A DNA stretch of 45,126 nucleotides from a virus, in IMG/VR virus record IMGVR_UViG_3300020183_000144, positions 1 to 45,126 of that record. One strand, 5' to 3'. Position 1 is the stretch's first letter. Every line of letters starts with the position of its first letter. The position numbers were made by a program, and so were the translations under genes. The notes under the pieces were generated by a model. The model saw only the letters and a list, made by a program, of their open reading frames with translations, ran no database searches and had not been told where the DNA came from. Shown here piece after piece: positions 5,398-45,126 of the stretch.

Positions 5398-5497
5398 AGG
5401 GGTATCAGAACCAGTCTCAAAATACTTAGGTAATTACCTTGCCAAGTCAAGAGATACGGGCGACCCTCCCTAGGTTGGATTTCCCTAGGTAAGGCAC
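5398..5497. promoter_or_regulatory. Divergent early promoter region
   Basis: This 100-base gap separates the leftward gene at 5397 from the rightward gene at 5498. It contains ACTTAGGTAATTACCTT (5424-5440) near the leftward start and two CCCTAGGT(T/A) copies, one at 5468 and one at 5483-5491 close to the rightward start. These resemble the recurring TTAC/GTAA and CTAGGT elements elsewhere. It likely holds both early promoters and their operators. Confidence 0.55.
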
Positions 5498-11687: not shown

Positions 11688-11865
11688 CTAGGGGGTGGCG
11701 GCCTCCGATACGGTTTCAGCCACCAGCACACAACACTGGTGACACCGCGCACAGCCTTACGGGTAGTGCCGACCGCCGTACTTACGTTACACTTGGCGAT
11801 CCCCTGGGGGGACCTGGGGGTGATAAGGCCAGAGGCGCTGAGAATGAGAACCGTTCTCAGCCATA
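11551..11865. other. Gene-poor region with second half of repeats
   Basis: No convincing gene. It holds the right half of the CCATTCA cluster to 11687, an operator-like GTACTTACGTTACACTTGG near 11778, and an inverted repeat TGAGAA/TTCTCA near 11840-11860. It separates the convergent ends of the rightward replication block and the leftward accessory block. Confidence 0.4.
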
Positions 11866-11895
11866 GGCAAAAGAAAAGAGGGCCGGTGGCCCTCT
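11866..11895 (-). terminator. Rho-independent terminator (leftward)
   Basis: Perfect 8-bp stem AGAGGGCC/GGCCCTCT with a 3-base loop (11877-11895), followed in the leftward direction by TTTTCTTTT. It lies 25 bases beyond the stop of the leftward gene at 11920, where a terminator is expected. Confidence 0.85.
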
Positions 11896-11919
11896 AGGTG
11901 GGATCGGTAGGGGTAGCGG

Positions 11920-12081
11920 TCAGGTCAGCCGGTGGCTTCGGTCACCCTCAAGATCAGCGAGCAGATCTTCTAGGTGATCAGTGAACTGGCCATAAGTGGC
12001 AGAGATGGCCGGCCAATCCGGCAGGCCCTCCAGCACCGACAGAGCAAGTCTCACCCGATCCGCAGGGGTAAGGGGTTCCAT
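11920..12081 (-). CDS. Small hypothetical protein, 53 aa
   Basis: A 53-residue frame starting at the ATG read from 12081 (MEPLTPADRVRLALSVLEGL...), helical, with an acidic segment FTDHLEDLLADLEGD. It is followed at close range by a strong terminator, which supports a real leftward transcript. No domain recognised. Confidence 0.6.
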   Translation of the reverse strand: MEPLTPADRVRLALSVLEGLPDWPAISATYGQFTDHLEDLLADLEGDRSHRLT

Positions 12082-12290
12082 AGTGTGAGTCCGATTGTGT
12101 GATCTGCTGATGTCGCCATCAGCGGGGCCATCCTAGCGTGGCTGATCACCGGCCCGTATGGCGTGTGACATAAAAAACACCGCCGGACGGCTGAGAACCT
12201 CTGCCACCACTGGGGTCGTTTGTGACCGTGTGACATAAAAACCCCCGAACCCTTACGGGCCGGGGGTAGCGGGATCGGTGGGGGGAACGC
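12082..12290 (-). terminator. Tandem leftward terminators with identical tails
   Basis: After the stop at 12291 the leftward strand reads a hairpin with CGGGGG/CCCCCG outer arms and a GGG/CCC inner stem (12242-12266), followed by TTTTT. A second weaker hairpin (GCCG/CGGC, 12182-12191) is followed by TTTTTT. Both T-runs belong to an identical 15-bp direct repeat CGTGTGACATAAAAA on the plus strand (12162-12176 and 12227-12241). No gene is seen in the gap. Confidence 0.7.
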
Positions 12291-12719
12291 TTAACGGGGT
12301 TCGGGACCCTCACGGGCACCTAGAGCTGATACACCACCTTCAAACGCGGCCCGGTTGATCAGCTCAGCATCTGAGAGGCTCGGACCCGTCGCCATAACCT
12401 CCCGGAGCTTTGCCAGGGCTGAGATCAACCGGGGGAGTTCGCTTGGGGTAGCTTCCAACAGTTGCAGTTGCAGCCGTTGGAGTGCCATAGCTGCAGTCTC
12501 GCTAAAAGGGTCTGCAGCCGGGCCAATGCCATCTTCTCGGATCTCATCATTGGCCAAGGCCAGATACCGGCGGGCTTGTCTGACTGACACGCCGTAGTCA
12601 GTCACCAGCCGTGAAAGGATCACGCTGGGGGTTGCACCCTGCAGGCGCAGCATTGCCGCAATGCTGACCCGTTCCTTAAGTTCCGCGTTGGTGGCTCGGG
12701 GGGTAGTGGGGTCGGTCAT
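12291..12719 (-). CDS. Helix-turn-helix protein, terminase-small-subunit-like
   Basis: Encodes 142 residues from the ATG at 12719, which overlaps the upstream stop as ATGA. Residues 14-60 (ELKERVSIAAMLRLQGATPS, then YGVSVRQARRYLALANDEI) form a helix-turn-helix closely resembling the N-terminus of the small terminase at 15204-15533: both share the GA-S and GV-RQA-Y-A pattern. The C-terminal half is Leu-rich and helical. It could be a second DNA-binding relative of TerS or a regulator derived from it. It is the last gene before the tandem terminators. Confidence 0.65.
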   Translation of the reverse strand: MTDPTTPRATNAELKERVSIAAMLRLQGATPSVILSRLVTDYGVSVRQARRYLALANDEIREDGIGPAADPFSETAAMALQRLQLQLLEATPSELPRLISALAKLREVMATGPSLSDAELINRAAFEGGVSALGAREGPEPR

Positions 12720-14690: not shown

Positions 14691-14819
14691 CTAGCGACGC
14701 ACCACACCGGCAACGGCTTGCGCCATAGGCCGGAGGATGGGAGAACCGGGCGCCAGGGCATCCGCCCAGATCAGGGCAGCGGCAACCCACGCCAGAACGC
14801 CGAAGGAGTAGCGCACCAT
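14691..14819 (-). CDS. Small membrane protein, 42 aa
   Basis: A 42-residue frame (MVRYSFGVLAWVAAALIWAD...) whose ATG overlaps the stop of the upstream gene as TGATG. One hydrophobic segment (residues 6-19) follows a single Arg, and the C-terminus is basic (VVRR). Translational coupling to the membrane-anchored HTH gene suggests that the two small membrane proteins act together. Function unknown. Confidence 0.65.
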   Translation of the reverse strand: MVRYSFGVLAWVAAALIWADALAPGSPILRPMAQAVAGVVRR

Positions 14820-15010
14820 CAGCAACCTGCCGCTAGAACACGGCGCACAGTTGAACGGCTGCAACCAATGCGGTCTGCGATTTGCTGCTGCGATGCCCCT
14901 GCGGACCGCCAGCGGCGGATCCGTTGCTCGCGGGATTCTGACGCCCATAGCAGGAACAAAAGGGGGAACAAAAGGGCCGCCAGTAGAACGGCGACAAATG
15001 TGGTAGCCAT
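14819..15010 (-). CDS. Membrane-anchored helix-turn-helix protein, 63 aa
   Basis: Encodes 63 residues. Residues 4-22 (TFVAVLLAALLFPLLFLLW) form one transmembrane helix. Residues 28-60 are a compact helix-turn-helix of the resolvase/Hin type: EQRIRRWRSAGASQQQIADR, IGCSRSTVRRVLA. The combination in such a small protein is unusual and suggests a DNA-binding domain tethered to the membrane, or an HTH relative adapted for another use. It is the first gene leftward of the perfect 18-bp palindrome at 15056-15073 and could be its regulator. The stop overlaps the ATG of the next gene. Confidence 0.75.
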   Translation of the reverse strand: MATTFVAVLLAALLFPLLFLLWASESREQRIRRWRSAGASQQQIADRIGCSRSTVRRVLAAGC

Positions 15011-15073: not shown

Positions 15074-15203
15074 AGCGCACAGGCGCAGCACCCGCAAAAG
15101 GGGGGCAAACTCGATCAGTGTTCCTTATGTAAGGATCACCAGGGCCAGCACCGCACCGCGACGGCAAGGCCCGGCAAACTAGGCGCAGACACCCTTAGAT
15201 AAG
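15074..15203. promoter_or_regulatory. Upstream region of the late block
   Basis: Between the palindrome and the small terminase start. It contains the inverted repeat TCCTTA-TG-TAAGGA (15122-15135) and CCCTTAGATAAG just before the start, both related to the early operator family. Probable start of late transcription. Confidence 0.4.
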
Positions 15204-16047: not shown

Positions 16048-17403
16048 ATGTCGATTCTGAGCGTGATCGCGGGCGGGAAGGTGCTGGAGAAGCCCCAACG
16101 CACGGCCACGCGCTGCACAGAGAGCTACGAGGGCTTACGAAAACGCATCTACAAGGATCTGCTGGAGCCCCAAAAGCAGTTTGTAGACGACACCGACCAC
16201 AAGATTCTCGGTTATTGCGCCGGGTTTGGGGCAGGCAAAACTTTTGCTCTGGCCGCCAAAGCAGTGTTTTTGGGTATGGACAACCCAAACACAACCGCAG
16301 CAGTATTTGAGCCCACCAACATCATGTTGCGGGACGTTTGGATGCGTTCTTTTGACCAATTTTTAGAGGAATACAACATCCAGCACGACTTCCGCGTGTC
16401 CCCGCAGCCCGAATATGTGTTGCACCTACCCCATGGCCCCGTCACACTGCTGTGCCGGGCCACAGAGACATTTAACCGGATTCGTGGACAGAACCTCTCG
16501 TTTGTTTTAGCCGACGAGATTGACACCTCACCAATGGAGGTAGCACAAAAGGCAGCAGAGATGATGCTGGCCCGTCTTCGTGGCGGCCAAAAACCCCAGC
16601 TGGCACTGGCTTCTACGCCAGAAGGCTATAAATATCTCTACCGCACCTTCGTCGAGCAGGGCGACAATCTCGACCGTCGTTTGATCAAAGCCAAGACCAC
16701 CGACAACCCCCACCTCCCAGCTGGCTTCGTTGACTCGTTATATCAAAACTACGACAGTCAGCTGGTTGCCAGTTACATCAACGGTGAGTTCACGAACTTA
16801 GCGAACACCACTGTTTACCACCCATTCGACAGGGACCGTCACTGGTGCGACACGGAGATACGCCCCGAGGACCGTGTATTTGTGTCGGTTGACTTCAACG
16901 TGGGTGCGTGCTTCTGCGAGGTGATGGTGCGGCGCGGCGACGAGTTCCACGTCATTGATGAACACCACCCGAAGGACACCCCTGCGGTGGTGGCGTTGTT
17001 GCAGGAGCGATACGGGGACTTTGTAGAGCGAGGGGACTTGGTGGTAATTCCTGACGCGGCATCAAGGCAGCGCACCACCACCAACGCAGCGGAATCCGAC
17101 CTTTCGCTGCTGCGTAAGGGTGGTTTTGCGGTGAAGACCCAGAGCGCCAACCCTCAGATCGCGGACCGGGTAAACGCGGTGAACGTGTTGCTACTGGCCG
17201 ACCGCTTAAGGGTTCACAACCGTTGCAAGTACCTAATTAAGTCGTTGGAGCAGCAGACCTACGACAAGTCGGGCAAGCCGACGAAGGGGATTGGGGGGTT
17301 GGATGACATTTCGGGTCCTGTGGACGCCTTGGGCTACGGCATTACTTACCTGGCACCGCTACGTCGCTACGCGACGGGCGGCTCTTCCTTCCGCACCTAC
17401 TAA
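16048..17403 (+). CDS. terL: Terminase large subunit
   Basis: Encodes 451 residues. Walker A GFGAGKT (residues 59-65, Lys64), Walker B LSFVLADEID (Asp156, Glu157) and the LASTPEG coupling motif form the packaging ATPase. The RNase H-like nuclease follows with VSVDFNVG (Asp282), VIPDAAS (Asp336) and GPVDALGYG (Asp425). It drives DNA into proheads and cuts it. Length and motif order are typical for siphoviruses. The stop overlaps the next ATG as TAATG. Confidence 0.95.
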   Translation: MSILSVIAGGKVLEKPQRTATRCTESYEGLRKRIYKDLLEPQKQFVDDTDHKILGYCAGFGAGKTFALAAKAVFLGMDNPNTTAAVFEPTNIMLRDVWMRSFDQFLEEYNIQHDFRVSPQPEYVLHLPHGPVTLLCRATETFNRIRGQNLSFVLADEIDTSPMEVAQKAAEMMLARLRGGQKPQLALASTPEGYKYLYRTFVEQGDNLDRRLIKAKTTDNPHLPAGFVDSLYQNYDSQLVASYINGEFTNLANTTVYHPFDRDRHWCDTEIRPEDRVFVSVDFNVGACFCEVMVRRGDEFHVIDEHHPKDTPAVVALLQERYGDFVERGDLVVIPDAASRQRTTTNAAESDLSLLRKGGFAVKTQSANPQIADRVNAVNVLLLADRLRVHNRCKYLIKSLEQQTYDKSGKPTKGIGGLDDISGPVDALGYGITYLAPLRRYATGGSSFRTY

Positions 17404-17756: not shown

Positions 17757-17770
17757 CTGGAAATCTAGGT
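17757..17770 (+). promoter_or_regulatory. Late motif copy, CTGGAAATCTAGGT
   Basis: CTGGAAATCTAGGT ends 17 bases before the portal GTG start at 17788. Matches the late-block consensus in 13 of 14 positions by eye. It supports the GTG as the real start. Confidence 0.55.
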
Positions 17771-17787: not shown

Positions 17788-19368
17788 GTGGTCGTCAACA
17801 ACAGCAGCTACCCCCCACAGAGTCTTGGGTCTGCTGGGGTAATGCCGGCCAACACCAACACCGACGATCCGAGCATCGTGTCGAGCCAAGTGTTGGCGAT
17901 GCGAGGGAACTGGGAGTCGATTGATATTTGTATGGATGGCACGCGGGGATTGCGTGCCCGAAGTCGGGTACTGATCCCGCAAGAGCCCTCAGAGTCCGAC
18001 GACGCCTACCAGCGTCGGATTTTCCACGCGACGCTGCCACCCTTTTTAAGCCGTTTGGCATCCCAGGCAGCGGGGATCATTTTGCGCAAGGGCGTAAAGG
18101 TGGAGGGTGACGACTACTGGATGACATGGATCCAGAACGTCTGCGGTGACGGCACCACCCTTGATGAGTATGCCCGTCGTCAGCTGGTGACGGCGTTGCT
18201 GTACGGGCACAGCAGCACCGTGGTGGACTTCACCAATGACAGCTCACCGCGGACGCTGGCGGAGGAGCGGCAGTCTGGGCGTCGTCCTTACTTGGTGCCG
18301 ATCCACCCGAGGCAGATCTTGGGATGGCGCACCACCAACGACAGTGCCTGCAGCGACTTGGCGCAGGTCCGAATACGCGAGCAGGTCGTGGTCGCCAAGG
18401 GGGCGTATGGAGAGGAAATCGTCGATCAGATCCGGGTGTTGACCCCTGGCGGCTATGAGGTGTGGCGTTCCGCGCCGTTGCCTTACCGGCAGCTATCGAA
18501 CTACGCGGTGCAGCCGCTCCCCCTGCAGTGGGAGTTGGTTGAGTCAGGTGCAACGACGCTGGGCCGGGTGCCGATGGTGACGGTTTATTCCAACCGCACC
18601 GGCAATTTGATGAGCACACCTCCGCTGATGGAGGTGGCCGCGCTGAACTTGGCCTATGCGCAGCGGTTCTGCGATCTGCACCACAGCATCCACGTAACCG
18701 CCAACCCGATGTTGGTGATGCGTGGGTTTGACCCGGACACCGACAGTCCGATTGGCATTTCAGCGAACACAGCGCTGCTAATGCCAGTAGATGGTGGGGC
18801 GGAGTGGATCCAGCCCACCACCGACGCATTTGAGGCGCAGCTGCGGACGCTAAAGGAGTTGGAGGATCAAATCAGCAGGTTGGGCATCAACACGTTGAGC
18901 CAAGCCAACCTCACCAACGCTGCAGCTGAGGCACGCCGCTTAGATCGTGTCGATAGCGACTCGATCATGGCGATGATCTCGCTGGATCTGGAGCGCACGC
19001 TGGCCCAGATGTTTGAGCTGGCGTCTTCCTACGTGGGTATCGAGCCACCAACGGTGACGATTCCACGGGACTACGACAACCGGATGCTGACCGGCAACGA
19101 GGTGACAGCGTTGCTGCAGCTCTATATGCAGAACGCGATCAGCCAGCAAACACTGCTGAAGGTGCTGCAGGACGGAGAGGTGCTGCCAATCACCATCGAC
19201 TTGGATGCCGAGATGAGTTTGACGGCTGAGCGATTGGAGGAGCAGCAGGTTATGGAGCGTCTCGCCATGGCCGGTCCCGACATGGCGTTCCAGAACGCCG
19301 GCCAAGGCGAATCGCTCGACAGCCAGACGCTGCCAACGCCGTTGCGCCCTGGCCGTAACGCCAACTGA
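17788..19368 (+). CDS. Portal protein (DUF4055-like)
   Basis: Encodes 526 residues. The layout fits the DUF4055 portal family: an N-terminal segment with TLPPFLSRLASQAAG, a central core (HPRQILGWRT, VPMVTVYSNRTG), and a helical C-terminal half (AYAQRFCDLHHS, LEDQISRLGINTLSQ), ending in a Pro/Asn-rich tail. It would form the dodecameric ring at the portal vertex. The GTG start is supported by the late motif 17 bases upstream. Position after terminase and before a head morphogenesis protein is standard. Confidence 0.85.
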   Translation: MVVNNSSYPPQSLGSAGVMPANTNTDDPSIVSSQVLAMRGNWESIDICMDGTRGLRARSRVLIPQEPSESDDAYQRRIFHATLPPFLSRLASQAAGIILRKGVKVEGDDYWMTWIQNVCGDGTTLDEYARRQLVTALLYGHSSTVVDFTNDSSPRTLAEERQSGRRPYLVPIHPRQILGWRTTNDSACSDLAQVRIREQVVVAKGAYGEEIVDQIRVLTPGGYEVWRSAPLPYRQLSNYAVQPLPLQWELVESGATTLGRVPMVTVYSNRTGNLMSTPPLMEVAALNLAYAQRFCDLHHSIHVTANPMLVMRGFDPDTDSPIGISANTALLMPVDGGAEWIQPTTDAFEAQLRTLKELEDQISRLGINTLSQANLTNAAAEARRLDRVDSDSIMAMISLDLERTLAQMFELASSYVGIEPPTVTIPRDYDNRMLTGNEVTALLQLYMQNAISQQTLLKVLQDGEVLPITIDLDAEMSLTAERLEEQQVMERLAMAGPDMAFQNAGQGESLDSQTLPTPLRPGRNAN

Positions 19369-20195
19369 TGACCCCAGATGAGTACGTGCGCGAGTTAGCG
19401 CAGGCGATCACGCAGCAGGAGGACCTCAACGACTCGGAAGCGCGTGACGTGCTGTATGAGTTGGCGCTGCGGATCTACGCGCTGCTGCTGCGGGATCTAC
19501 CTGAGGAGCGGCTAGAGCGCCAACTGCGCTGGCGCCAGCTACGCACCCGCATCACGCTTGAGCTGTTGGCGATCAACGACGTGCTGGCCCAGCAGCTCTA
19601 CAACCGCTTGGCGGCCACGGAGCTGTTGGTAAGCGACGTAGCTCGACGCTATTTCCAGCTCCCCGTTGGGGCCGTTCCACCACGACAACTAACAGAGGTG
19701 TTGGACACCACCCGTGTTGTGGGTGTTCCGGTGTCGCAGTTGTTTGTGCGCAACCCACGTACTGGGCTCTCGCCGTTTGTGACGCAGCTGTTGCAGTTGC
19801 TGGAGAGGAGCGTGGTGGGGATGTTCTTCACTGATCCGCCTGTAGCGGAAGTGGCGGCCAAGGTGATCGGGGTACGCACCAGTGTCGGTCGTCAGGTGCC
19901 TGTCCCATCGAAGGGAACAGTGGCCAACAACTGGCGGGAACGTGTGCAGTCGATTGTGGCCGCGGCGTTATGGGGCACGGTGCAACCGGCGATTGACCGG
20001 GCAGCTGCGGCAGCCGAGCGAACGCGAATCGCACAGCTCTTGCGGTGGCGGTGGAACGCGGTGTTGGACCCAAAGACGTGTCCGGTGTGCCGCCCACTGC
20101 ACGGCAGGCTTGAAGCAGATCCTGCGGACTTCCCTCAAGGCCCACCTCCTATACACCCCAGATGCCGGTGTGTATTGATCCCGGAGATGGAGTGA
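19368..20195 (+). CDS. Head morphogenesis protein (SPP1 gp7 / Mu gpF-like)
   Basis: Encodes 275 residues. The C-terminal hallmark of the family is clear: WRWNAVLDPKTCPVCRPLHG and PPIHPRCRCVLIP, with paired cysteines and a His as in the Mu F-like minor head domain. The N-terminal two-thirds is helical with a long Arg/Leu-rich segment. These minor proteins bind the portal and are packaged in few copies. The ATG overlaps the portal stop (TGATG). Confidence 0.88.
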   Translation: MTPDEYVRELAQAITQQEDLNDSEARDVLYELALRIYALLLRDLPEERLERQLRWRQLRTRITLELLAINDVLAQQLYNRLAATELLVSDVARRYFQLPVGAVPPRQLTEVLDTTRVVGVPVSQLFVRNPRTGLSPFVTQLLQLLERSVVGMFFTDPPVAEVAAKVIGVRTSVGRQVPVPSKGTVANNWRERVQSIVAAALWGTVQPAIDRAAAAAERTRIAQLLRWRWNAVLDPKTCPVCRPLHGRLEADPADFPQGPPPIHPRCRCVLIPEME

Positions 20196-20215: not shown

Positions 20216-20229
20216 TCGGCAATCTAGGG
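20216..20229 (+). promoter_or_regulatory. Late motif copy, TCGGCAATCTAGGG
   Basis: TCGGCAATCTAGGG ends 19 bases before the GTG start of the scaffold gene (20249). Also preceded by CCCTTACGTGAATACTTAG at 20197-20215, a relative of the early operator, so this spot may be doubly controlled. Confidence 0.55.
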
Positions 20230-20986: not shown

Positions 20987-21022
20987 GAACAAAACCACCA
21001 CTTGCATTAAGGAACAGAGGCA

Positions 21023-21976
21023 ATGGCCGAAACCGTCCGCTCGAATGTCATCGTTCCCGACATTTTTGAGCCTTATATCGAAGAACAGACCACCCTCCGC
21101 AATGCCTTTATTGGCAGCGGCGTGGTGCAGCCGATGGCTGAACTCAACGCCACCGAAGGCGGTGACTTCATCAATTTGCCGAACTGGGTTGCCAACCTGA
21201 GCGGCGACGCTGAGGTACTGAGCGACTCGACCTCTCTGACCCCCGGCAACATCACCGCTGATAAGCAGCGTGCTGTGGTGCTGCATCGTGGGCGGGCCTT
21301 CGGATCTCGGGACCTCGCGGCGTTGGCTGCTGGCTCGGACCCCTTGGCTGCCATCGGCAACAAGGTTGCTGCATACATCGCCTATGAGCAACAGAAGGAC
21401 CTGCTGGCTTGCCTGTCTGGTGCCTTCGCTACTGCTCTTAACGGCTTGACCGTCAGCACTGAAGAGGCATACCCCACCGCCTCCATGGTGTCTGGTGCCC
21501 GCGCCAAGCTGGGCGATCAAGGCGAGAAGCTGTCCGTGATGGCGCTTCACAGCTCGGCCTACTACAAGTTGGTTGAACTGAAGGCTCTGGATTACATCTC
21601 CGCTGCTGAGATGGGCTCCACCGACCCTGTTGGTGGTAGCCGTGTACCCAGCTTTGGCGACGTGCGGGTGCCGACCTACATGAATTGTCGGCTTGTCGTG
21701 TCCGATGACCTCGGCGCCGACGATGTGTATTTCTTCACCCCTGGCAGTGTGGCTTCGGGTGAGCAGGCCGGTCTTCGCTCCGAGCAAGACCGCGACATCC
21801 TCGCCAAGGCGTCCTACATCAGCTTCGACTGGCACAACGTCTTCCACCCCATTGGTGTGAAGTACGTGGGCACTGGTGCAAACCCCAACCGCGCCACCCT
21901 TGCTACAGGCGCCAACTGGCAGAAGGTGTTCAATGACAAGAACATCGGCATGATCAAGGGCACCCTGAACGTCTGA
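21023..21976 (+). CDS. Major capsid protein
   Basis: Encodes 317 residues, of major-capsid length and position. Features include EQTTLRNAFIGSG near residue 20, a helix around SDPLAAIGNKVAAYIAYEQQ (the HK97-fold spine-helix region), and a C-terminal domain with SFDWHNVFHPIGVKYVG. It resembles the group described as major capsid protein 13-like. A ribosome site AGGAACAGAGG lies before the ATG, one of the few clear ones in the late block, fitting high expression. Confidence 0.85.
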   Translation: MAETVRSNVIVPDIFEPYIEEQTTLRNAFIGSGVVQPMAELNATEGGDFINLPNWVANLSGDAEVLSDSTSLTPGNITADKQRAVVLHRGRAFGSRDLAALAAGSDPLAAIGNKVAAYIAYEQQKDLLACLSGAFATALNGLTVSTEEAYPTASMVSGARAKLGDQGEKLSVMALHSSAYYKLVELKALDYISAAEMGSTDPVGGSRVPSFGDVRVPTYMNCRLVVSDDLGADDVYFFTPGSVASGEQAGLRSEQDRDILAKASYISFDWHNVFHPIGVKYVGTGANPNRATLATGANWQKVFNDKNIGMIKGTLNV

Positions 21977-22173
21977 TGGGACTGACCGGGTTCAACCTGG
22001 CCCGGCGTAAGGAGGAGGCTGCTACTGCGGCCTCCCTTCCTTGCCCCGCACCAGTTGCAGCAGCACCTGCTGCTGAAGAGGACAAGCCGAAGCGCAAGCA
22101 GCGGCCTAAGCAGAAGCCGGTTGACGCTCCTGAGGTGGTTACCCCTGAGGAGCTTGCTGGGCCGGAAATCTAG
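21976..22173 (+). CDS. Small Ala/Pro/Lys-rich protein
   Basis: Encodes 65 residues, low complexity: Ala/Pro-rich middle (PAPVAAAPAAEEDKPKRKQR) with a strongly basic stretch, then VVTPEELAGPEI. Coupled to the capsid gene by TGATG. Likely disordered; similar short proteins sit after capsid genes in related phages. Function unknown. Confidence 0.65.
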   Translation: MGLTGFNLARRKEEAATAASLPCPAPVAAAPAAEEDKPKRKQRPKQKPVDAPEVVTPEELAGPEI

Positions 22174-22175
22174 GG
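22162..22175 (+). promoter_or_regulatory. Late motif copy, CCGGAAATCTAGGG
   Basis: CCGGAAATCTAGGG overlaps the end of the preceding small gene and ends 16 bases before the ATG at 22192. One of the best copies of the late consensus. Confidence 0.6.
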
Positions 22176-22191
22176 AGCACCACCTCAGGTC

Positions 22192-22734
22192 ATGGCCGCT
22201 GAGATCATTGCCACGGTTGGTGCCGCTAACGCCAACAGTTACATCACGTTGGTAGAGGCACAGGCATTTGCCGATGGCGACATCAGCGCTGCGGAGTGGG
22301 ATAGCTCGACCACCGACCAGAAAAAGCGGGCGCTGATCACCGCCACCCGCAATTTGGATCTGGTCGGTTTCGTCGGGACACGAACCACAACTACTCAGGC
22401 GCTGGCTTGGCCACGCAAAGACTTCAGAACAAGCGAAAAGACCTACGCCGACAATGAGATCCCCAGTGAGATCAAGTTGGCGACTTGGGAGCTTGCCAAG
22501 GCACTGGTGAAGGACATGGTGGTCGCCGGCCAAGTGGCAGGCAGCACCTCCCTGATTCCCGGTATCCCCAACACCGGCTTAAAGCGGGTCAAGTTGGATG
22601 TGATGGAGGTGGAGTGGAAGCCGGATTATCAGCCAGCCATAACTCCCCTAAAAGCGCTGCCCCAACTCCAGCAGCTGTTGCAGGATCTGATCTTGAACAC
22701 CCCCGGCCAGACAGTGGCAGTGGTGCGCAGCTAG
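22192..22734 (+). CDS. Head-tail connector, DnaT-like phage family
   Basis: Encodes 180 residues with the pattern NSYITLVEAQAFADGD, W, KKRALITATRNLDLVGFVGT and QALAWPRKD. This is the family named after a DnaT-like ssDNA-binding domain but found in phages as the adaptor placed after the capsid gene. Located between capsid and tail genes, it is best read as a head completion protein. The ATG is supported by the late motif 16 bases upstream. Confidence 0.78.
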   Translation: MAAEIIATVGAANANSYITLVEAQAFADGDISAAEWDSSTTDQKKRALITATRNLDLVGFVGTRTTTTQALAWPRKDFRTSEKTYADNEIPSEIKLATWELAKALVKDMVVAGQVAGSTSLIPGIPNTGLKRVKLDVMEVEWKPDYQPAITPLKALPQLQQLLQDLILNTPGQTVAVVRS

Positions 22735-22773: not shown

Positions 22774-22785
22774 TACACTGGGCCA

Positions 22786-23340
22786 ATGGCTCAGGTTGCC
22801 GACCCACAGCCAAGATCTACACCGGCGCGGCATCGCCCCCGTACCGGCTACTTGGCCACGCCGTTATCTCGTGACGAGCAGCGGATGGTGGCGCGGATGT
22901 ACCGACAACACCAAGGGTTATTGCGGTTGATGGGGCGCAAGCTCTGCCGCAAGTACCCCTTTGTCAGTGCAGAGGACGTGTTCAGCTGCATTGATCAGGC
23001 GTTTATCAAGACGTGCCGTGCATGGCAGCCGGCCAAGGGCACCTTCTCAACACTGTTGACGGTGTTTGCGGAGGGGGACGTGTTGCATTTCATCCGCGAC
23101 CACAACTGGACACTGAAAGCACCTGGGGCCGTGCGTCGCAACGGCCAGCTAGCACGAAAGCTGATGGAGAAGGGGTGCAGCTCTGGCGAGGTGATGATGA
23201 AGCTGGGTCTGACGGATGAGCAGCTGAAGTTAGCGCTCACTGCCACCAGCCCCACCGACCACGACATCCGAGGATTTGACCTCCACGTCTGTCCCAGACC
23301 CAACCCCTGGGAGCTGCTGGAAGCTGAAGAAGCTGGATAA
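22786..23340 (+). CDS. Short sigma-70-like factor (regions 2-3 only)
   Basis: Encodes 184 residues. After a basic N-terminal tail, residues 41-112 follow sigma region 2: HQGLLRLMGRKLCRKYPFVS, AEDVFSCIDQAFIKTCRAWQ, then KGTFSTLLTVFAEGDVLHFI and RDHNWTLKAPGAVRR, echoing GEI-RHFRDR-W-VP of SigF/SigB-type factors. Residues 120-153 (KLMEKGCSSGEVMMKLGLTD) look like a region 3 helix-turn-helix. No region 4 is present; the C-terminus is short and acidic. It lies inside the structural module between a connector and the tail tube. I infer a phage late sigma factor or an RNA-polymerase-binding relative. It differs from the full group 2 sigma factor at 42203. Confidence 0.72.
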   Translation: MAQVADPQPRSTPARHRPRTGYLATPLSRDEQRMVARMYRQHQGLLRLMGRKLCRKYPFVSAEDVFSCIDQAFIKTCRAWQPAKGTFSTLLTVFAEGDVLHFIRDHNWTLKAPGAVRRNGQLARKLMEKGCSSGEVMMKLGLTDEQLKLALTATSPTDHDIRGFDLHVCPRPNPWELLEAEEAG

Positions 23341-23352
23341 GGCAACTTAGGC
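23339..23352 (+). promoter_or_regulatory. Late motif copy, AAGGCAACTTAGGC
   Basis: AAGGCAACTTAGGC ends 17 bases before the tail tube ATG (23370); it overlaps the stop codon of the sigma-like gene. Confidence 0.55.
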
Positions 23353-23369: not shown

Positions 23370-23852
23370 ATGGCTACAGGTGCTTTTTTCGTCGCCCTCG
23401 GGTACAAGCTTTTTCTGAAGCTGGGCACCAGTGCCAGCGCCATTCCCACCAGCAGCACGGGCATGACCCGTATATTTTCGCTGGACAACACCGGCATCCA
23501 AGCCCAGTCCGACACCCAGGATGTGATTGATTACGACTCGGAGCAGGGCTTCAAAGCAACCCTAATTACCTCGCAGTCGTACACGATTCCTTGCTCCATG
23601 AATCTATCGTGTTCGGACCCCGGGTATCTCATTTTGAAGGAAGCTGCCCGCGAAGCTGCTAGCGGCACACTTGTCCAGTGGTATCGTGAAACTCCTGTGA
23701 CCGATGGTTCTACAGATGATCCCGAAGTACACGCCGGCCTTGCTCAGGTTGGCTCGTTCTCCGAGGATATCCAAGCAGGGAATATCGCAAAAGTTAATTT
23801 CGACTTGATCGGATTTGGGGCGTATTCGTTTACTCCTCAAACTGCTGACTGA
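23370..23852 (+). CDS. Major tail tube protein
   Basis: Encodes 160 residues, mostly beta and Ser/Thr/Gly-rich (LKLGTSASAIPTSS, DVIDYDSEQGFKATLITSQS, VQWYRETPVTDG, KVNFDLIGFGAYSF). The size, beta content and position before the tape measure fit a siphovirus tail tube protein of the TP901-1/lambda V type. It would polymerise into the tail tube. Start supported by the late motif. Confidence 0.8.
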   Translation: MATGAFFVALGYKLFLKLGTSASAIPTSSTGMTRIFSLDNTGIQAQSDTQDVIDYDSEQGFKATLITSQSYTIPCSMNLSCSDPGYLILKEAAREAASGTLVQWYRETPVTDGSTDDPEVHAGLAQVGSFSEDIQAGNIAKVNFDLIGFGAYSFTPQTAD

Positions 23853-23886: not shown

Positions 23887-24375
23887 TTAAGTACCTCTAA
23901 AACCTCGCCATACGTTGGCGAAGATTTTTTCTGGTGGCTTGGCCTCAAAAGCCGCTTTAATCCAGTTGCGCCCTGGCCGGTTGCCGACGTTGACGAGCTC
24001 ACCGCGGACGTTGACGTAAGAGCCGTAGACACCACCTTCTAGAACTCGCTTTGCGTAGGGGGCTCTCCACGCAATGCTCAGCGTGTCTTTGTCGCCACGC
24101 CGTGTGATCAGTGGCGCCGTGATGGAGTCGAGCAGAGTTCCGGTATCCACGATGTCTCGTTTCCCGGCCCGCACAATCACGCCCGGAAGGCCGGGTTCAG
24201 TTTCACCGCCCATCAGGAGGCTTTCTTCCCTAAGTGTGTCCCAACTCCAATCCCACAGAGGGTTGGCGATTTGTAGTGTTGTTTCTTCGACGTAAGTTGG
24301 TGCCACACGTCCCAAGGTGCTGGCGACCTTGGCCTCAAGCCGAGAGGCGTTCCAACGGCTAAAGCTGACCGGCAT
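23887..24375 (-). CDS. HK97 gp10-like head-tail / tail completion protein (inverted)
   Basis: Encodes 162 residues with the gp10-like pattern: DTGTLLDSITAPLI, RAPYAKRVLEGGVYG and NRPGRNWIKAAF toward the C-terminus. Such proteins join heads and tails and are normally co-directional with the other structural genes. Here it is on the opposite strand together with the gene at 24378-24770. Start ATG at 24375; the two inverted genes are separated by two bases. Confidence 0.75.
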   Translation of the reverse strand: MPVSFSRWNASRLEAKVASTLGRVAPTYVEETTLQIANPLWDWSWDTLREESLLMGGETEPGLPGVIVRAGKRDIVDTGTLLDSITAPLITRRGDKDTLSIAWRAPYAKRVLEGGVYGSYVNVRGELVNVGNRPGRNWIKAAFEAKPPEKIFANVWRGFRGT

Positions 24376-24377
24376 GG

Positions 24378-24770
24378 TTACTCCTTAGCGAGGAGTGTGA
24401 TTTTGGTTCCAAGGATGCTGGACAACTGCGCTCCCAGAACTCCTTGATCTCCGTAACCAAGTCGAGAGCGAATGACTTCAAACGGCACAGCTTGGGCGGT
24501 GCCGAAGATCAGGGTGCCAGTGCTACCAATGCCTACCCGAGGATCGAGCGCCTGCGGTGAAATGACGTACCCCTCATAAAGAAGACCGTTGGCATCGACA
24601 CCGGGGTAGACGGTCGGATCGACGTTGACTGCTTTGAGAAACGCAGTGTGCTGGACTTCAGCCCAAGAGGGGTAGACGTTTCCGGTTTCTGGGTCGGTGA
24701 GCACACCTTCACCTGCAACACGAAATGAGATCGTTGCGTTGGCGAGCGGCAGCAGGGCGGAAGTGCTCAT
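24378..24770 (-). CDS. Probable head closure / connector protein (inverted)
   Basis: Encodes 130 residues, beta-rich (TISFRVAGEGVLTDPETGNV, GTLIFGTAQAVPFEVIRSRL, TKITLLAKE). Size and neighbour (gp10-like protein) fit a head-closure or stopper protein, but I see no decisive motif. Read leftward from the divergent region 24771-24817. Confidence 0.6.
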   Translation of the reverse strand: MSTSALLPLANATISFRVAGEGVLTDPETGNVYPSWAEVQHTAFLKAVNVDPTVYPGVDANGLLYEGYVISPQALDPRVGIGSTGTLIFGTAQAVPFEVIRSRLGYGDQGVLGAQLSSILGTKITLLAKE

Positions 24771-24775
24771 AACCG

Positions 24776-24797
24776 AGGTTGCCCCGGCAACCTAGTT
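24776..24797. promoter_or_regulatory. Divergent late motif within an inverted repeat
   Basis: AGGTTGCC-CC-GGCAACCT (24776-24793) is an inverted repeat whose right arm is the late motif CCGGCAACCTAGTT (24784-24797), ending 20 bases before the tape-measure GTG at 24818. The left arm gives a partial motif toward the leftward gene at 24770. Probably a bidirectional promoter for this divergent pair. Confidence 0.55.
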
Positions 24798-32081: not shown

Positions 32082-32095
32082 CCGGCAACTTAGGT
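32082..32095 (+). promoter_or_regulatory. Late motif copy, CCGGCAACTTAGGT
   Basis: Exact CCGGCAACTTAGGT, identical to the copy at 40217-40230, ending 16 bases before the ATG at 32112. Confidence 0.6.
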
Positions 32096-36390: not shown

Positions 36391-36404
36391 CGGGAAATCT
36401 AGGT
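36391..36404 (+). promoter_or_regulatory. Late motif copy, CGGGAAATCTAGGT
   Basis: CGGGAAATCTAGGT, starting two bases after the stop at 36389, ends 21 bases before the GTG start at 36426. Confidence 0.55.
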
Positions 36405-40216: not shown

Positions 40217-40230
40217 CCGGCAACTTAGGT
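40217..40230 (+). promoter_or_regulatory. Late motif copy, CCGGCAACTTAGGT
   Basis: Exact repeat of the 14-mer at 32082-32095, again ending 16 bases before an ATG (40247). Confidence 0.6.
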
Positions 40231-43780: not shown

Positions 43781-44635
43781 CTAGACAAGGGGCATCTCGT
43801 AGTTGTTGGTGATGCCGGCGTAGTGCTCCCAGCAGGTTTGGGGAGTGTTGCCGGCCCACTTGGCCACCTGCGTCACAGGGATGCCCTGCTCCAGCAAGGA
43901 ACTGATGAAGGTGTGCCGAAGGTCGTAAGGCCGGTAGCGGTGCTTGATCACACCTTTGTTGTAAAGACGCTGCATAGCGCTGCGGAACGATGTTTGGTAC
44001 GTCTGCCGCGGCCAAGGAAAGACAAAAGGCTCGTTATGCGCCTTTTGCATATCTCTGAGGATCCCGTAGGCGATCTCGTTTAGAGGCACCCACCGTTCTT
44101 TCCCCGTCTTGGTGCGGGTCTGCAGCCCGTGTGTGAGGGTCATGTTCTGGTGGATCCGGCAGCGCCGGTTCTCCCAGTCCACGTCTTCCCACTGCAGGCC
44201 AAACACCTCCGCAGTACGGAGGCCAAGCTGTAGCTGGAAGTTGGCCACCAGATGCCACTTGGCCTCATGGATGGAAGTCAGTCGCAGCGAGGCCATCACG
44301 TCGTCCTGAATCGGCTTGGGGATGACGATGGGCTCAGGTTTCTGGTCTTCCTTGGGTAGGCGGAAGGTGGCCACTGGGTTGCGGCTAACCAGCGCTACGT
44401 CCTCGCTGGCTGCCCAGCGGAACAGCGTTTTGACGTACTGGGCCACCGCTTTGGCGGACTTGGGCGGCTGTTGCTTGAGGATCCAGACCATGGCAAGACG
44501 AGCCTGCTCGGGGTCCTGAAACGGACAGCGCTCCAAGTAGTTGGTCACCTGCGTCCAAGTGGAGGTGGTGCTGGTTGGTGCGACCGAGAGGGCTCGCTCA
44601 GACTTGAAGGCTTCCCAAAGCTCAAGAAGGGTCAT
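43781..44635 (-). CDS. int: Tyrosine recombinase / integrase
   Basis: Encodes 284 residues from the ATG at 44635, which overlaps the upstream stop by 14 bases; an in-frame start at 44650 exists. An N-terminal SAM-like domain (residues 1-95) precedes the catalytic domain. Box I is LGLRTAEVFGLQW (Arg140), then TKTGKERWVPL (Lys176), box II YDLRHTF (Arg240, with Tyr in place of the usual first His), WAGNTPQTCWEHYAG (Asn where His is common) and nucleophile Tyr272. Such substitutions occur in other phage integrases, so it may still be active. It indicates a temperate lifestyle or ancestry. No attP core could be identified. Confidence 0.9.
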   Translation of the reverse strand: MTLLELWEAFKSERALSVAPTSTTSTWTQVTNYLERCPFQDPEQARLAMVWILKQQPPKSAKAVAQYVKTLFRWAASEDVALVSRNPVATFRLPKEDQKPEPIVIPKPIQDDVMASLRLTSIHEAKWHLVANFQLQLGLRTAEVFGLQWEDVDWENRRCRIHQNMTLTHGLQTRTKTGKERWVPLNEIAYGILRDMQKAHNEPFVFPWPRQTYQTSFRSAMQRLYNKGVIKHRYRPYDLRHTFISSLLEQGIPVTQVAKWAGNTPQTCWEHYAGITNNYEMPLV

Positions 44636-44843
44636 TGAGTAACGAGTCAAGGATGGATACGAGTGCGTCCCTGATCCGTAGTGCTTTCGTCGTGTTGACC
44701 CTCACCATCATGTCTGCGTCAGGGTCCTCCTCGTCCACATCCCCAAAAGTGGGTAGGGTCTCAGCAATGCCGGTGGCCGCGTTGGTTGCCTCATTGATGA
44801 GGTGGTGCAGGGTTTGAACCTGCTCTGGGCTTACGGGCGGCAT
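44622..44843 (-). CDS. Small acidic protein upstream of integrase
   Basis: Encodes 73 residues: MPPVSPEQVQTLHHLINEAT, then a very acidic stretch GDVDEEDPDADMM and ALRIRDALVSILDSLLNDPS. Two helices around an acidic loop. Its stop overlaps the integrase start. Its N-terminal portion is repeated at 1-192. Might influence integrase as a small acidic partner, but no family recognised. Confidence 0.75.
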   Translation of the reverse strand: MPPVSPEQVQTLHHLINEATNAATGIAETLPTFGDVDEEDPDADMMVRVNTTKALRIRDALVSILDSLLNDPS

Positions 44844-45126
44844 TAGAAGCAGCAGCTACGGTCGGTCAGATAGTATGAAGCACTTACGTAAGGGTCAACC
44901 CTTTTCTAGCGCTTTTGTCGAGTCCCGTGCGTCTCAGCTCTCAGTGCCGTGGTAGCCGTAACGATCCACCGCCTTCCGCCTGCTGTCGGTGCGTGTGGCC
45001 GCTCTGAGTCTTCGCTTACCGGAGCGAACTTCGCGTGCAAAATCGAGGAACTCTGCTGCACGGTGCAACTCACCTGCTGTAGCAAAAGAGACAGCCGCCC
45101 GCAGCTTGGCCATGGCCTGCTGCCTT
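44652..45126. repeat. Right copy of diverged terminal overlap
   Basis: Matches 1-476 at about 96-97% identity. The last base of the window aligns with base 476 of the left copy. It includes most of the acidic gene and part of the basic 70-aa gene, plus the operator core CTTACGTAAG at 44883-44892. Confidence 0.9.
44934..45126 (-). CDS. Small basic protein, partial (right-end copy)
   Basis: The C-terminal portion of the gene complete at 284-496, cut by the window edge before its start. Protein differs by one Thr to Ala change near the basic stretch; all other differences are synonymous. Confidence 0.75.
   Translation of the reverse strand, partial: RQQAMAKLRAAVSFATAGELHRAAEFLDFAREVRSGKRRLRAATRTDSRRKAVDRYGYHGTES

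Follow-up and report, generated by a model that had tools for sequence, protein, structure and literature searches.

Within a 45,126-base virus contig (IMG/VR record IMGVR_UViG_3300020183_000144, here called the window, meaning the whole stretch of DNA that was analysed), we identified a gene, SIG, which encodes a divergent member of the sigma-70 family, of group 3 type, that keeps sigma2 and sigma3 and has no sigma4. Judged from sequence comparisons, SIG is very probably the late-gene promoter-recognition subunit of this virus, working like T4 gp55 at a single-element late promoter. A preliminary description of the window had proposed a late sigma factor, and this proposal is now supported by the sigma2-sigma3 identity found by both profile and fold, the fixed place of the gene in the structural module, and a single-element motif that co-occurs with such sigmas in two phage groups.

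Identity, fold and genomic setting of SIG

The SIG ORF (22786..23340, + strand) runs from ATG to stop and encodes a protein of 184 aa, which contains RDHNWTLKAPGAVRR and which we assign to the region-4-less group 3 (SigB/SigF-like) sigma factors. Its sigma2 domain (22870..23103, +; residues ~29-106, regions 2.1-2.4) forms four helices, mostly of high confidence in an AlphaFold model, and is followed by a sigma3-like domain (23125..23244, +; residues ~114-153) that is a three-helix helix-turn-helix according to the model and the alignment to SigB region 3. A conserved C-terminal tail (23245..23337, +; residues 154-184) completes the protein and contains DHDIRGFDLHVCPRPNPWELLEAEE and, across the family alignment, the near-invariant residues D158, H159, F164, H167, C169, P170, R171, P174, L178, and E179; this tail, which has low pLDDT, probably takes the place of the sigma 3.2 finger or region 3-4 linker.

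Residues 38-109 matched Pfam Sigma70_r2 with E=1.2e-4 and 22.3 bits, slightly short of the curated threshold (24), while the same model recognized 27 of the 30 family members, at best with E=3.9e-6, and SIG itself matched the PHROG sigma-factor family phrog_351 (E=5.6e-8). Searching the PDB with the single sequence by phmmer gave nothing useful, and matches came from a family profile alone, which was built from 30 SIG relatives and run against solved structures. The best of these were S. aureus SigB (8x6g_H; E=2.3e-5, aligned over regions 2.2-3.1) and, weakly, SpoIIAC/sigma-F (1l0o_C; E=0.018), where the alignment runs on through region 3; SIG also shares the (F/Y)xRD motif of the SigB/SigF/SigG group. 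The Pfam Sigma70_r3 model itself did not match SIG, nor did any region 4 model, and the protein stops after the region 3.2 position. Members of the SigB/SigF/SigG family have region 4 and use two-element promoters, and because region 4 was not found in SIG, we class it as a region-4-less derivative and not as a canonical group 3 sigma.

Structure prediction gave moderate whole-model confidence (pLDDT 72.8, pTM 0.54). Among the 50 matches listed by a Foldseek search of the PDB, almost all were sigma factors with probability near 1, though individually weak by E-value (1e-3 to 0.1), and superposition on the sigma2 domain of SigE (8b3z) gave an rmsd of 2.1-2.6 Å over ~78 residues. The region 2-like core, region 3-like helix-turn-helix, and missing region 4 read earlier from the sequence were thus recovered by profiles and by AlphaFold/Foldseek. 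By eye, region 2.3/2.4 does not keep the W-W-Q signature, which counts against the late-sigma reading, as does the Pfam score below the threshold. Conservation within the protein is among the highest in regions 2.4 and 3, which face the DNA (RDHNWxxKAP). We also looked for a match to a head-tail or unrelated fold without region 2 similarity, and both Foldseek and profiles gave sigma factors; no connector or neck family was returned by Pfam, NCBIfam, or PHROGs, and no such fold by the search of the PDB.

An imperfect terminal repeat indicates that the source record is near complete. The direct repeat (1-476 versus 44652-45126) is 95-98% identical, which suggests a circularly permuted or population-assembled genome of ~44.65 kb. 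SIG lies in a structural module that holds genes for terminase (16048-17403), portal (17788-19368), minor head protein (19368-20195), and major capsid protein (21023-21976), with the head-tail adaptor gene Ad1 (22192-22734; phrog_477, 1.5e-29) as its upstream neighbor and the tail tube gene (23370-23852; tail/major tail protein, phrog_38654 1e-10 and phrog_1407 7e-8) as its downstream neighbor. This placement between head-tail connector and tail tube, as first described, recurred in each of the 93 related viral loci where the three genes were all seen. Two head-completion-like genes on the minus strand follow between tail tube and tape measure, namely Tc (23887-24375; phrog_5 Neck1-like, weak E=0.005) and Hc (24378-24770), and these were inverted in 81/81 and 79/79 of the relative loci where they were found, respectively.

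We found 94 SIG relatives in viral contigs, and profile search adds more. Relatives share a median identity with the window copy of 71% in SIG, 46% in Ad1, and 31% in the capsid protein, and SIG is under strong purifying selection (dN/dS 0.03-0.17). Because KBS-S-2A, S-H1, P-HS2/MED4-184, and MED4-117 are the cultured phages nearest to this virus in capsid and terminase, its host is likely a cyanobacterium. With SIG as the query, tblastn against INPHARED returned weak matches only. One SIG relative was seen in a search of genome contigs, on a contig of 3.3 kb assigned to a Rhodoferax MAG, and we rejected this as a host clue since the contig is probably a misbinned phage fragment.

A single-element motif upstream of late genes

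Hc and the tape measure gene point away from each other, and the gap that separates them holds a conserved dyad, half of which recurs upstream of late genes in the window. The exact form GGMAAYYTAGG occurs seven times in the window, always on the + strand and in the late region, against a shuffle mean of 0.115. Allowing for one mismatch to GGMAAYYTMGG in relatives, copies stand upstream of portal (GGAAATCTAGG, 17759..17769, +; 27/28 relatives), a scaffold-like gene (GGCAATCTAGG, 20218..20228, +; 36/44), Ad1 (GGAAATCTAGG, 22164..22174, +; 52/63), the tail tube gene, where the motif abuts the SIG stop codon (GGCAACTTAGG, 23341..23351, +; 56/65), and Hc (GGCAACCTCGG, 24773..24783, −; 29/50), with a chance expectation of <0.5 for each of these five counts. 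Further copies precede the tape measure gene (GGCAACCTAGT, 24786..24796, +), a 136-aa gene (GGCAACTTAGG, 32084..32094, +; 9/21 relatives), a 368-aa gene (GGAAATCTAGG, 36393..36403, +), and, with one mismatch, a 109-aa ORF that is possibly terS (GGCAAACTAGG, 15173..15183, +), while one lies near distal late genes where the gene start is not clear (GGCAACTTAGG, 40219..40229, +). For + strand genes of relatives, the distance from GGMAAYYTMGG to the start codon is mostly 17-23 nt.

No relative had the motif before its minor head, capsid, SIG, Tc, or 1027-aa gene, and it is absent at overlapping or tightly coupled genes (minor head, Tc, g252, g1027). That the motif is missing before the major capsid gene (0/47 relatives), which is among the most heavily expressed late genes, counts against the late-sigma reading, though the scaffold copy lies ~0.8 kb before that gene. 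The region upstream of the capsid gene (20987-21022) likewise has no late motif in the window, and many relatives have CGCGGGTAA..CACGGTAAACCCCGC there instead, a potential hairpin.

No partner at -35 distance accompanies the motif: in the 50 nt upstream, column information stayed at or below 0.35 bit for the window family and 0.50 bit for the second sigma-positive group (described below), and the column maxima of both groups directly adjoin the motif, from which we conclude that there is no -35 element. At 24773-24796, two motif copies stand back to back between divergent genes as a head-to-head dyad (CCGAGGTTGCC-CC-GGCAACCTAG), making this a possible bidirectional late promoter. In the window, only ~2 nt separate the motif from the minus-strand start codon, which would leave that gene with almost no leader or place its true start further on. 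We considered whether the dyad marks the end of an invertible segment and rejected this, as the window has no long matching inverted repeat (minimum length 40).

The motif is probably a promoter, a reading supported by its juxtaposition with terminators. An intrinsic terminator ends ≤25 nt before the late element at 9 of 57 sites, compared with 21 of 4000 random positions. For example, upstream of the S-CRES3 tape measure gene, the T-run of a terminator is followed by 4 nt, the element, ~20 nt, and the start codon; a two-element promoter at such a site would overlap the terminator, and the element itself would therefore have to specify initiation, unless such genes rely on read-through.

SIG itself is preceded by a different element. 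A sigma70 -10-like TACACT (22774..22779, +) sits 6 nt before its start codon and is a candidate SIG promoter, given that TA[CGT]ACT occurs upstream of SIG in 29/69 relatives versus 2.0 expected, mostly 6 nt before the ATG, and not once upstream of five late genes. The late motif was found at SIG in 0/69 relatives, which speaks against the earlier suggestion, in its simple form, that the factor is expressed from within the operon it controls. Elsewhere in the window, TTACCTAAGTAA-like near-palindromes lie upstream of early or other genes (at 5423, 9160, and 34204), and TAACCTNAGTAAGTAG-type elements related to them lie upstream of terL in relatives; both are possibly early or middle promoters or operators.

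Co-occurrence of element and sigma type in cyanosiphoviruses

In the cultured phages P-SS2, S-CBS2, S-CRES1, and S-CRES3, a SigF-like sigma gene directly follows terL, and its product resembles SIG in having a SigF-like region 2 and region 3 (ORF003, the group 3 sigma, in P-SS2). The SIG family profile matched these phage SigF-like proteins at 1e-11 to 1e-5 (P-SS2 1e-11, S-CRES1 5.5e-10). As in SIG, Pfam finds no region 4 in the two tested, from P-SS2 and S-CRES1, a negative that carries less weight in proteins this divergent than in SIG, which is simply too short. They differ from SIG in identity (~32% over part of the length), in having a different C-terminal extension, and in gene position. 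The S-CBS2 SigF-like gene (11833-12453) matches in two pieces in different frames, and a frameshift or sequencing error may have shortened the protein as annotated. Two sigma factors have already been reported in P-SS2 (PMC2784084), and the part of that paper drawn on here mentions neither a late motif nor region 4 loss.

De novo motif search upstream of the genes of these four phages recovered the element GGNANNCTA, of GG.A..CTA type and with the same spacing, with log-likelihood ratios well above those of shuffled sequences (S-CBS2 108/33.5, S-CRES3 84/34.5, S-CRES1 76/36.7, and P-SS2 49/33.6). Counting genes with GGNANNCTA in the upstream 60 nt, we found 6/12 in the window, 13/33 in S-CRES1, 16/35 in S-CRES3, 22/34 in S-CBS2, and 6/27 in P-SS2, all of which carry a SigF-like sigma. 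Phages without one gave 0/23 (KBS-S-2A), 0/14 (P-HS2), 0/16 (S-H1), 0/12 (S-CBS3), and 0/13 (S-CBS1), and the last two to be tested, for which absence had been predicted, gave 0/26 (S-CBS4, bases 1-50000) and 0/14 (S-LBS1). An RpoD-like sigma is annotated in KBS-S-2A, S-CBS1, S-CBS3, and S-LBS1, and since these lack the element, it tracks the SigF-like and not the RpoD-like sigma. De novo search in KBS-S-2A gave a weak and different motif.

These phages are not independent samples, with the sigma-positive ones forming two groups and the sigma-negative controls about three. The motif pattern was derived from the window first and the other phages were tested afterwards; the exact GGMAAYYTMGG occurs neither in S-CRES1 nor in the scanned stretch of S-CBS2, and the looser GGNANNCTA form came only from the de novo search. 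In six extra S-CRES-like contigs, whole-locus GGNANNCTA counts were not above simple shuffles, and all matches were on the + strand.

The window also encodes a full-length RpoD-like sigma, P0002 (42203..43306, −), with regions 1.2, 2, 3, and 4 all above Pfam cut-offs; a similar sigma was present in 10/10 longer relatives searched, and P-SS2, S-CRES1, and S-CBS2 likewise carry a second, RpoD-like sigma. A tyrosine integrase gene (43781-44650, −) lies near P0002. The presence of both SIG and a separate, full-length P0002 suggests a two-step cascade. Genome-wide, region 4 models found only P0002 and a weak helix-turn-helix at 14831-14905 (−). The latter belongs to an ORF of ~63 aa (14819-15007, −) in which a hydrophobic segment precedes the helix-turn-helix, with a weak Sigma70_r4 match of 21.4 bits, and which resembles a membrane segment plus a resolvase-type helix-turn-helix.

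Proposed mechanism, alternatives and implications

We propose that sigma2 of SIG would dock on the β' coiled coil of the host core polymerase and that sigma2 and sigma3 together would read GGMAAYYTMGG as an extended -10 type element, one possible register being GG at -14/-13, A at -11, and T at -7. Transcription would then start shortly before each late gene or gene pair, giving short leaders, and with no sigma4 there would be no -35 contact, leaving the β flap free for another factor. The SIG gene is probably on earlier, from the sigma70-like TANACT read by a host sigma or by P0002, such that SIG would be expressed first and the late genes after it in a two-step cascade.

The closest parallel is with T4, where gp55 is likewise a very small sigma-70-family protein without region 4 (a likeness of architecture) and the late promoter is a single element with no -35 (PMC2988020). 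The T4 element is an 8-bp TATA box, while the SIG element is GC-richer; gp55, which is sigma2-like, binds the sliding clamp through its C-terminus and acts together with this clamp and gp33, while SIG keeps sigma3. The preliminary description had set SIG apart from the late sigmas of T4 and SPO1 because those are encoded outside structural genes, and this stands for gp55, unlike which SIG sits in a structural operon; the location is not unprecedented, given the SigF-like genes that follow terL in P-SS2, S-CBS2, S-CRES1, and S-CRES3.

An unlikely but serious alternative, which refines the late-sigma reading such that our confidences in the two are not exclusive, is that SIG is half of a split sigma whose sigma4 or a mimic of it is encoded separately. 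B. subtilis SigO, listed as a group III sigma2-sigma3 polypeptide of 22.5 kDa and thus similar in size to SIG, lacks sigma4 and obtains it from the separate 9-kDa RsoA (PMC10141391), and T4 gp33 occupies the β flap while gp55 binds the coiled coil (PMC2988020). The window has unassigned small ORFs that might be considered for such a role, including the one with the helix-turn-helix at 14831-14905 (−), but its membrane and resolvase-type features argue against it, no sigma4 other than that of P0002 was found (in a search that would miss a gp33-like partner without sigma homology), and no -35 element is conserved. We put forward, tentatively and as somewhat short of probable, the fuller proposal that SIG is a self-sufficient sigma2-sigma3 factor needing neither sigma4 nor mimic, that the 11-bp element alone makes up the late promoter, including the palindromic bidirectional one at 24773-24796, and that a cascade with an RpoD-like phage sigma operates in two distant cyanosiphovirus groups.

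Other readings deny the link between SIG and the element. It is improbable that the motif is the site of another regulator, or an RNA element acting in translation or processing, coinciding with SIG by chance: the narrow 17-23 nt distance to start codons is what a translational element might show, but overlapping or tightly coupled genes do not have the motif, a minus-strand copy precedes the inverted gene, copies directly follow terminators in other phages, and the motif is missing from seven cyanosiphoviruses without the SigF-like sigma, at least four of which have an RpoD-like one. Slightly less credible still is the RNA-polymerase-binding decoy also raised in the preliminary description, a sigma appropriator that would switch off transcription of the host without recognizing any promoter. 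The retained core-binding sigma2 fold, the absence of region 4, and the unusual region 2.3/2.4 residues would fit such a protein, yet a decoy needs no cognate promoter element, and one was found that co-varies with the SIG protein type; moreover, the DNA-facing RDHNWxxKAP stretches rank among the most conserved. Very improbable, finally, is a structural head-tail protein with a chance sigma-like region. A position between adaptor and tail tube is usual for head-completion genes, but profile and fold both return sigma factors, and Tc (23887-24375, −), with its weak Neck1-like match, already provides a head-completion-like gene nearby.

As far as could be found, how late genes are switched on in cyanosiphoviruses has not been worked out, and we found no published description of the late element, of region 4 loss in these phage sigmas, or of the SIG family in a search that mostly excluded subscription journals. 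For SIG as a late-gene promoter-recognition subunit, our analysis provides a specific candidate sigma, a candidate promoter sequence, and target genes in the cultured phages S-CBS2, S-CRES1, S-CRES3, and P-SS2, in which the proposal is therefore directly testable. If the proposal is true, cyanobacterial genetics would gain a compact candidate sigma/promoter pair, and phages would have come to region-4-less sigmas with single-element late promoters at least twice, once in the T4-like group and once here, starting from a SigF-type sigma.
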